Positions 40,273-43,738 of a DNA stretch of 44,109 bases are shown piece after piece (position 1 is the first letter of the stretch; every line of letters begins with the position of its first letter). The notes under the pieces were generated by a model. It ran no database searches, was not told where the DNA came from, and saw only the letters and a list, made by a program, of their open reading frames with translations. The stretch comes from Opitutaceae bacterium (GTDB lineage: Bacteria > Verrucomicrobiota > Verrucomicrobiia > Opitutales > Opitutaceae), in assembly GCA_016794665.1 (NCBI GenBank), contig JAEUHB010000154.1:1-44109 (forward strand). The letters run 5' to 3'. The position numbers were made by a program, and so were the translations under genes.

Positions 40273-41043
40273 CTACTTCGCGGCGATGGCCGCGGTCACC
40301 AACTCGACGAAGCTGCGCGCCTCGAGGCTGGCGCCGCCGATGAGGCCGCCATCGATGTCCTTTTGCGCGAGCAGCTCCGGCGCGTTGGCCGGCTTCATCG
40401 ACCCGCCGTAGAGGATGCGGACCTTTTGCGCGACCGCGTCGGTGAAATGCCTGGCCAGCAGGCCGCGGATGAAGGCGTGGACCTCCTGCGCCTGCTCGGT
40501 GGTTGCCACCTTGCCCGTGCCGATGGCCCAGACGGGCTCGTAGGCGATGACCACGGAGCCCACCGAATCCTTGTTCACGCCTTCGAGGCCGCGCTCGGTC
40601 TGCGTCTGCACGACCTTGAGCGTCGCGCCGGCCTCGCGCTCCGCGAGCGTCTCGCCCACGCAGAGGATCGGGCGGAGCTGGTTCTTGAGCGCGGCGAGGA
40701 CCTTCTTGTTCACAAGCTCGTCCGTCTCGCCGAAAAGCGTGCGGCGCTCGCTGTGGCCGAGGATGACGTGGGTGGTGAAGATCGCCCGCAGCATCGGCGC
40801 CGAGATTTCGCCGGTGAAGGCGCCGCTGGCCTCATGGTGCATGTTCTGCGCCCCCAGCTTGACCGTGGAGCCCTCGAGCGCCTGGCCCGCAGTCTCGAGG
40901 CCGGTGAACGGCGGGCAGACGACGACCTCGACGTCCGTCTGTTTGCCGACGGCCGCGACGATGTCGCGCACGAGCGCGACCCCATCGGCGGGCGTCTTGT
41001 TCATCTTCCAGTTGCCGGCGATCAGTTTCTTGCGGGAGATCAT
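40273..41043 (-). CDS. tpiA: triosephosphate isomerase
   Basis: A 256-residue TIM-barrel enzyme of normal length. Active-site residues are all present: Lys13 in GNWKMN, His98 in ILGHSERR, Glu170 in IAYEPVWAIGTGK, and the phosphate-binding ILYGGSM and GGLIGGASL loops. It interconverts dihydroxyacetone phosphate and glyceraldehyde 3-phosphate in glycolysis and gluconeogenesis. The start at 41043 (MISRKKLIAGNWKMN) fits the family; an upstream extension in the same frame would overlap pgk. It lies 28 bases after pgk. Confidence 0.97.
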   Translation of the reverse strand: MISRKKLIAGNWKMNKTPADGVALVRDIVAAVGKQTDVEVVVCPPFTGLETAGQALEGSTVKLGAQNMHHEASGAFTGEISAPMLRAIFTTHVILGHSERRTLFGETDELVNKKVLAALKNQLRPILCVGETLAEREAGATLKVVQTQTERGLEGVNKDSVGSVVIAYEPVWAIGTGKVATTEQAQEVHAFIRGLLARHFTDAVAQKVRILYGGSMKPANAPELLAQKDIDGGLIGGASLEARSFVELVTAAIAAK

Positions 41044-41071: not shown

Positions 41072-42328
41072 TCAGTTTTCGAGAAACGCCACCCCGGGCA
41101 GCACCTTGCCCTCGAGGTATTCGAGGCTGGCGCCGCCGCCGGTGGAGCAATGCGTGACTTTCTTGTGCACGCCGAATTTTTTCGCGGCCGTGGCGGTGTC
41201 GCCGCCGCCGACGACCGTGGTCGCGCCCTTGGCCGTGGCCTCGGCGATCGCGTCCGCCATCGCCTTCGTGGCGCCCGCGAACTTGTCGAACTCGAACACC
41301 CCCGCGGGGCCGTTCCACACGATGGTCTTCGAGGAGAGGATGGCCGCACGGTAGAGCGCGATGCTCTTGGGGCCGGCGTCCATGCCTTCCCAGCCGTCGG
41401 GAATGCCGCTCTCCATGGTGGCCGGCTGCGTGTTGGCGTCGGGGCCAAACTTGTCGCCGCACACGAAATCCACCGGGAAAATCAGCTCCACGCCACGGGC
41501 CTTGGCCTTCGCCTCGAGCTCCGCGACGATCTCGGCGCCGGCCTTGTCGAAGAGCGACGAGCCGATTTTCATCCCGCGGTTAACCTTGTGGAAAGTGTAG
41601 GCCATGCCGCCGCCGATGATGATCTTGTTGGCCTTCTCGAGGAGGTTGGTGATGAGCGGGATCTTGTCGGCGATTTTCGCGCCGCCGAGGATGGCGAGGA
41701 GCGGGCGCTCGGGGGCGTTGAGCACCTTGTCGAAGGCCTTCAGCTCGGCCTCCATCAGGAAGCCGGCCGCCTTCACCGGCAGGTTCACGCCGACCATCGA
41801 CGAGTGCGCGCGGTGTGCGGTGCCGAAGGCATCGTTCACGTAGACGTCGCCGAGCTTCGACAGGCTCGACCGGAACGCCGCTTCCTTCGCCGGATCGGCC
41901 TTGAGCTTGGTCTCCGTGCCGTCGGCGTTCTTGATCTTCACCTTGCCTTCTTCCTCGAGGTGGAAGCGCAGGTTCTCGAGCAGCACAACCTGGCCGGGCT
42001 TGAGCTGGGCGCACGCGGCCTCGACCGCGGGGCCGACGCAGTCGTCGAGAAACGTCACCGGCCGGCCGAGCAGTTTTTCCAATTCGGTCGCGACCGGCTT
42101 GAGCGAAAACTTGGCGATCTTCTGGCCATCCGGGCGGCCGAGGTGCGACATCAGCACCACGGAAGCGCCCGCCGCCAGCGCATGCTGGATCGTGGGCAAC
42201 GCCGCCGCGATGCGCGCGGTGTTGGTGATCGCGCCGGTCTGCTTGTCCTGCGGGACGTTGAAGTCCACGCGCATGAGCACGCGCTTCCCGCCCAGGTTGA
42301 GGTCACGGATGGTTTTGAATTTGGCCAT
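41072..42328 (-). CDS. pgk: phosphoglycerate kinase
   Basis: A 418-residue enzyme. Hallmarks are RVDFNVP (20-26), the SHLGRPDG loop (about 59-66), [34 protein letters not shown] and the ATP-site [13 protein letters not shown]. It interconverts 1,3-bisphosphoglycerate and 3-phosphoglycerate with ATP formation. A good Shine-Dalgarno AGGA stands eight bases before the ATG (42337-42340). A long inverted repeat sits just upstream of it, so pgk expression could be adjusted relative to gap. Confidence 0.97.
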
Positions 42329-42348
42329 GGAAAGAGTCCTAAAACAAT

Positions 42349-42418
42349 CGCCCGCGAATCACACGAATCAGCACGAATAGTTGAGGTTATTCGCGTGGAT
42401 TCGCGTGATTCGCGGGCG
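42349..42418 (-). repeat. REP-like inverted repeat (31-bp arms) between gap and pgk
   Basis: The left arm is 42349-42379, the spacer 42380-42387, and the right arm 42388-42418. The arms match at 27 of 31 positions. In minus-strand (operon) RNA two of the four differences become G-U pairs, giving 29 of 31 paired. Each arm is made of three tandem copies of a CACGAAT/CGCGAATC unit. The hairpin ends 20 bases before the pgk start and is followed by AUUGUUUU. Confidence 0.93.
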
Positions 42419-42432
42419 GGGAAATGCGGTGC

Positions 42433-43738
<1,306 letters not shown>

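Follow-up and report, generated by a model that had tools for sequence, protein, structure and literature searches.

What is the long hairpin that separates gap from pgk in this genome: a regulatory element of these genes, a copy of a dispersed repeat, or a repeat serving as a regulatory element? The window, that is, the whole stretch of 44,109 nucleotides that was analyzed, carries the following features at this locus, listed from upstream to downstream on the minus strand:

42433..43479, minus strand: gap, type I glyceraldehyde-3-phosphate dehydrogenase, with the stop codon 14 nt upstream of the hairpin
42388..42418, minus strand: 5' hairpin arm of the mRNA, reading CGCCCGCGAATCACGCGAATCCACGCGAATA
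42414-42408, 42405-42399 and 42395-42389, minus strand: the three CGCGAAT words of the 5' arm
42380..42387, minus strand: hairpin loop, 8 nt between the arms
42349..42379, minus strand: 3' hairpin arm of the mRNA, with the plus-strand sequence CGCCCGCGAATCACACGAATCAGCACGAATA
42341..42348, minus strand: U-rich tract AUUGUUUU, immediately 3' of the 3' arm
41072..42328, minus strand: pgk, phosphoglycerate kinase, with the start codon (ATG, 42328-42326) 20 nt downstream of the hairpin
40273..41043, minus strand: tpiA, triose-phosphate isomerase, the next gene downstream of pgk

The gap and tpiA products exceed the NCBIfam cut-offs of the GAPDH-I and TIM models, while pgk matches the Pgk portion of a model for a Pgk/TIM fusion, the whole-protein cut-off of which is not reached. 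Read on the plus strand, the 3' arm contains the words CGCGAAT, CACGAAT and CACGAAT, starting at 42353, 42362 and 42372. The description given in the initial annotation holds in full at this level: the coordinates of the two 31-nt arms, their 8-nt spacing and their identity at 27 of 31 positions are exact, each arm contains three CRCGAAT words, the distance to the pgk start and the U-rich tract following on the minus strand are as described, and two of the four differences between the arms pair as G-U wobbles on the gap-pgk (minus) strand, whereas on the plus strand they are A-C. In two relatives sharing the words of the window, the position of the U-rich tract is occupied by AACTTTTTTT (G017) and AATTTTTT (G020).

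The G-U wobbles favour the mRNA strand. The minus-strand fold has an energy of -52.9 kcal/mol (z -9.4), with none of 200 shuffled sequences being as stable, whereas the plus-strand fold is weaker (-49.5 kcal/mol, z -6.3); the minus-strand ensemble energy (-53.7 versus the minimum of -52.9) indicates that the arms fold one way. No other inverted repeat in the window exceeds the scan threshold (score 19 versus maxima of 11-13 in shuffled sequences). A role at the transcript level on the gap-pgk strand is plausible, and the stable stem with the adjoining U tract has the form of an intrinsic terminator. A terminator scan also predicted a site at 42367-42351 on the minus strand, but this call is weak on its own, since the scan yielded three sites with 1.6 expected. 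A scan for sigma-70-type promoters found none between gap and pgk, and an Rfam search yielded nothing at the gathering score.

The element is not single in its genome. A query with the window element retrieved further dyads of 70-76 nt, and a general pattern, three CRCRRAD words with 1-3 nt between neighbours, has 80 matches in the 5.5-Mb genome versus one for the reversed pattern. These matches collapse to 50 elements: 42 have a complementary arm at most 140 bp away (control 0) and eight have no detected partner arm, so that the copy count asked for by the initial annotation comes to at least 42 paired hairpins with three-word arms. Twenty four of the 42 paired elements lie between co-directional genes, three between divergent and one between convergent genes, two at contig edges and 12 in ORFs; these contexts come from genome stretches and a crude GC-frame gene caller, and the 12 ORF placements are not trusted as intragenic. 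As 43 of 57 spaces of at least 60 nt at the same loci are co-directional anyway, the excess of paired elements in such spaces is modest. More telling is the close fit to the stop and start codons: many hairpins in tandem contexts fill the spacer, beginning 0-20 nt past the stop codon and ending 7-20 nt ahead of the next start. Examples are the copy at the gatA/gatB junction (L008) and the copy separating a pair of ORFs with matches to successive portions of MetH (L014). In the latter locus (G000:C252), the ORFs at 417-1499 and 1590-2381 match approximately positions 6-354 and 357-611 of the MetH profile, and a CACGAAA-word hairpin sits exactly between them. With a stop codon, a hairpin and a new start between the two parts, methionine synthase seems to be split at a domain boundary.

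The copies differ in their words. Thirty nine parsed elements fall into nine dialects: GAAA (nine elements), GGAT (seven), GAAT (five, including the window element), GGAA and AGAG (four each), AAAG, GGAG and AGAT (three each) and GAAG (one). The 5' arm matches its own 3' arm with a mean score of 20.2 and the 3' arm of another element of the same dialect with 18.8 (medians 20 and 20), versus 7.2, i.e. no pairing, for a 3' arm of a different dialect. Between elements of one dialect, loops resemble each other hardly more than by chance (5.1 versus 4.2 for shuffled loops), and the common internal sequence of a MITE is absent, loop scores of at least 9 occurring in two of 85 same-dialect pairs, one of them a local duplication. 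Hence pairing is kept across dialects and words are homogenized within a dialect, but no copying of whole elements is seen. Inspection of the flanks by eye revealed no evident target-site duplications at these copies.

Does the junction itself keep the hairpin? Thirty gap-pgk intergenic regions of the family have a median length of 109 nt, a median folding energy of -52.3 and a median z of -6.0. Significant fold stability (z < -3) was observed in 25 of them and a T-rich stretch (at least five T in eight bases) in 29; the exceptions include G034, which has no significant fold (z 0.0), and G032, which has no T-rich stretch. In most junctions with word hairpins the stretch starts a few nucleotides from the 3' arm, and in the TAGCGAG, CTGAAGG and TTCTAG junctions it lies inside the outer arms. 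The words differ between species: classes assigned by eye comprise CRCGAAT (the window, G017 and G020), TAGCGAG, CGCGAAG, CACAGAG, CGCGGAT, CACGGAA, CTGAAGG and TTCTAG, along with plain GC hairpins. On the tree of the gap and pgk proteins from 29 genomes, the word class changed at least 16 times, and nine times if all CRCRRAD dialects are merged. This comparison shows that the place of the hairpin has been kept among relatives while its letters were replaced repeatedly. The initial annotation was right about a dispersed intergenic family but missed this kept combination of a hairpin and a T-rich stretch with exchanged words.

The T-rich tail is found in two of 23 dispersed copies of the same genome, versus 29 of 30 family junctions, and so goes with the gap-pgk junction. 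Among the few genomes of the genus nearly devoid of word hairpins (1-3 copies) are those with a plain GC terminator at gap-pgk (G007, G009 and G015), but the link is not strict, as G028, G036 and G056 combine word triples elsewhere with a plain terminator after gap. In more distant relatives within the order, this place is often occupied by an ordinary GC hairpin and a T run, and in some members of the order gap and pgk are spaced by 15-23 nt with no hairpin, so the hairpin is dispensable outside the family. Two junctions have a composite structure. In G030 (L064), arms of TTCTAG-type words surround an intact ordinary terminator, as if they had been added around it, and in G031 (L072) there are two adjacent hairpins of different word classes, possibly a replacement intermediate.

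We consider it rather probable that this intercistronic hairpin, with a stem drawn from a dispersed repeat class, partly terminates transcription after gap and/or protects gap mRNA; we infer this from the sequence comparisons described above. On the gap-pgk-tpiA transcript, the stem and the U tract would constitute a partial intrinsic terminator, and/or the stem would be a 3'-end barrier shielding the gap segment against 3'-to-5' exonucleases. In either case gap mRNA would accumulate above pgk mRNA. If the stem and the U tract alone matter, a plain hairpin or another word class could substitute. Such a stem with a U tract could, on the other hand, be a full terminator. Stem-loops at the 3' ends of genes within operons set transcript ratios in Clostridium cellulolyticum (PMC4423207). 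The operon stem-loops of selective RNA processing and stabilisation, SRPS (PMC4423207, PMC8219983), resemble the hairpin studied here in being located at the 3' end of an upstream gene within an operon and in their proposed role of setting the transcript ratio; they are not known to be copies of a repeat family, unlike the gap-pgk stem, which is a dispersed repeat exchanged between species. If our reading is true, selection at gap-pgk maintains the position of a conserved regulatory hairpin, while dispersed repeats form the pool from which its sequence is repeatedly swapped.

The repeat class extends far beyond this genome. The suggestion that such palindromes are widespread in the phylum was borne out, since 67 out of 288 genomes from the phylum contain the CRCGAAT triple and none contains the reversed pattern. 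The CRCRRAD triple has 3651 matches in 37 family genomes versus 102 for the reversed pattern, with counts from 0-3 (G007, G009, G010, G015, G019 and G021) to 344 (G014). Within one genus the copy number ranges from about zero to more than 300 per genome, G004, G014, G016 and G018 each having more than 200. One member of the order, G043, has very many CRCRRAD matches, but its reversed control is also high (346), which points to a low-complexity effect, and this genome was set aside. A de novo scan for inverted repeats in 400 kb of each of three relatives identified seven, six and seven hairpins with periodic arms versus none in any shuffled sequence; not all of these belong to the present word class and some are within called genes.

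Among the matches listed, named genomes of many phyla contain the CACGAAT triple. In cultured genera there are 9-62 copies per genome (control 0) in 13 Flavobacterium, three Herpetosiphon and one Singulisphaera genomes, all chosen for having at least one triple. A complementary arm within 150 bp accompanies 61 of 108 triples from these genera and other loci (control 0), and for 47 no partner was found. In three Flavobacterium loci (L200, L203 and L177), a second word hairpin (CCACAGATTAAAAGGATTA...) is nested in the loop of a CACGAAT hairpin.

These data allow a broader reading, which we offer tentatively: a cross-phylum class in which each genome composes the hairpins at its operon junctions from a small vocabulary of seven-base words of its own, the arms being homogenized per dialect and the loops being unique. 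Such a class would provide functional sites, the gap-pgk terminator among them, with stems that can replace one another. In this reading, homogenized arms combined with unique loops mean that something other than transposition of whole elements makes or corrects the copies. By what route arms could be homogenized genome-wide while loops are not is a testable question. Were the reading true, it would point to a class of repeats, found also in cultured Flavobacterium, Herpetosiphon and Singulisphaera, that ordinary searches for sequence conservation would fail to identify as one thing. A literature search for word repeats, repeats of Opitutus and dispersed or intercistronic repeats found no description of the class, which is weak evidence of absence because subscription journals were mostly outside its scope; word hairpins of many bacterial phyla are apparently undescribed.

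Two known types of repeats are similar in part. Uptake sequences of Neisseria and Haemophilus are short genome-wide words that occur as inverted pairs after genes and can be used as terminators; their arms carry one word each and a species uses a single word, whereas an arm of a word hairpin is built of three tandem words and a genome uses several words. Cyanobacterial STRR are tandem seven-base words dispersed between genes, a feature common to both, but their sequence differs from that of the word hairpins and, to our knowledge, the heptamers are not organized as paired inverted arms.

The observations on copy number and location could also be explained without any function at gap-pgk: a mobile or copying process might fill short spaces behind stop codons with neutral or selfish repeats, gap-pgk being merely a frequent target. 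The 24 co-directional placements, many of them 0-20 nt from a stop codon, the variation of copy number in one genus and the high turnover at this single site are in line with such an explanation. However, it does not account for the T-rich tail that survives the exchanges at gap-pgk and is rare at other copies, nor for some hairpin being present there in nearly all family members, with a plain terminator in low-copy genomes. We regard the neutral origin as unlikely. Less likely still is an array acting at the DNA level, in which words spaced 8-10 bp bind a protein of the nucleoid or one concerned with topology or repair, the hairpin being a by-product. The words are indeed kept beyond the needs of pairing, as an arm fits any arm of the same dialect about as well as its own partner, and triples without a detected partner occur in this genome and elsewhere; but the spacing varies by dialect (8, 9 or 10), the words vary within one genome, and a complementary arm is close by for most of the genome's own triples. 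It is very improbable that the hairpin is a regulated pgk attenuator switching between termination and read-through by alternative word pairings, or a translational insulator blocking coupled gap-to-pgk re-initiation, for although the T run between repeated arms in the TAGCGAG class makes alternative stems possible and the genome's own hairpins often leave only a gap of the size of a start site ahead of the next gene, there is no Rfam match at the gathering score and the arms of the window have one fold.

Equally improbable is an origin suggested by the initial annotation, a REP-type family, here one with the GTAG tag, that is mobilized by a RAYT (REP-associated tyrosine transposase). GTAG- and CGTC-tagged REP/BIME elements (PMC3733652, PMC2817692) and word hairpins are both dispersed intergenic palindromes, multicopy and foldable as RNA, with a possible effect on mRNA stability or termination. 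The host group has true REPs as well: Opitutus terrae is listed among bacteria with many GTAG REPs in a study that also described transposases with other long terminal repeats (PMC3733652). Unlike REP/BIME, word hairpins have arms of about 29 nt with three tandem words, and several dialects coexist in one genome. The parsed elements of the genome studied here carry neither a GTAG nor a CGTC tag, their outer ends being mainly GCCC, ACC or AAGCGC before the first word. A transposase of the kind to be looked for according to the initial annotation does exist in the genome (NF047646, E 6e-24) but is not linked to word hairpins: the gene (L041:1267-1776, G000:C260) is flanked by GTAGG-type palindromes (GTAGGCCAGCTCGCTTGCGAGC-type), which represent the ordinary REP system of this genome. 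Given the unshared loops of same-dialect copies and the lack of a linked RAYT, the hairpin is not a REP by the defining test.

A linkage to RAYTs was considered because the numbers of Y1 transposases and word triples correlate (rho 0.66 over 49 genomes, 0.44 as a partial correlation controlling for genome size). It was rejected on the surroundings of 20 Y1 transposase genes from relatives: these contain only three word triples in 63.5 kb, with other inverted repeats present. Two of the relatives' Y1 transposase genes (L367 and L379) have long flanking inverted repeats with GGGGTC cores and resemble the TIRYT elements of PMC3733652.
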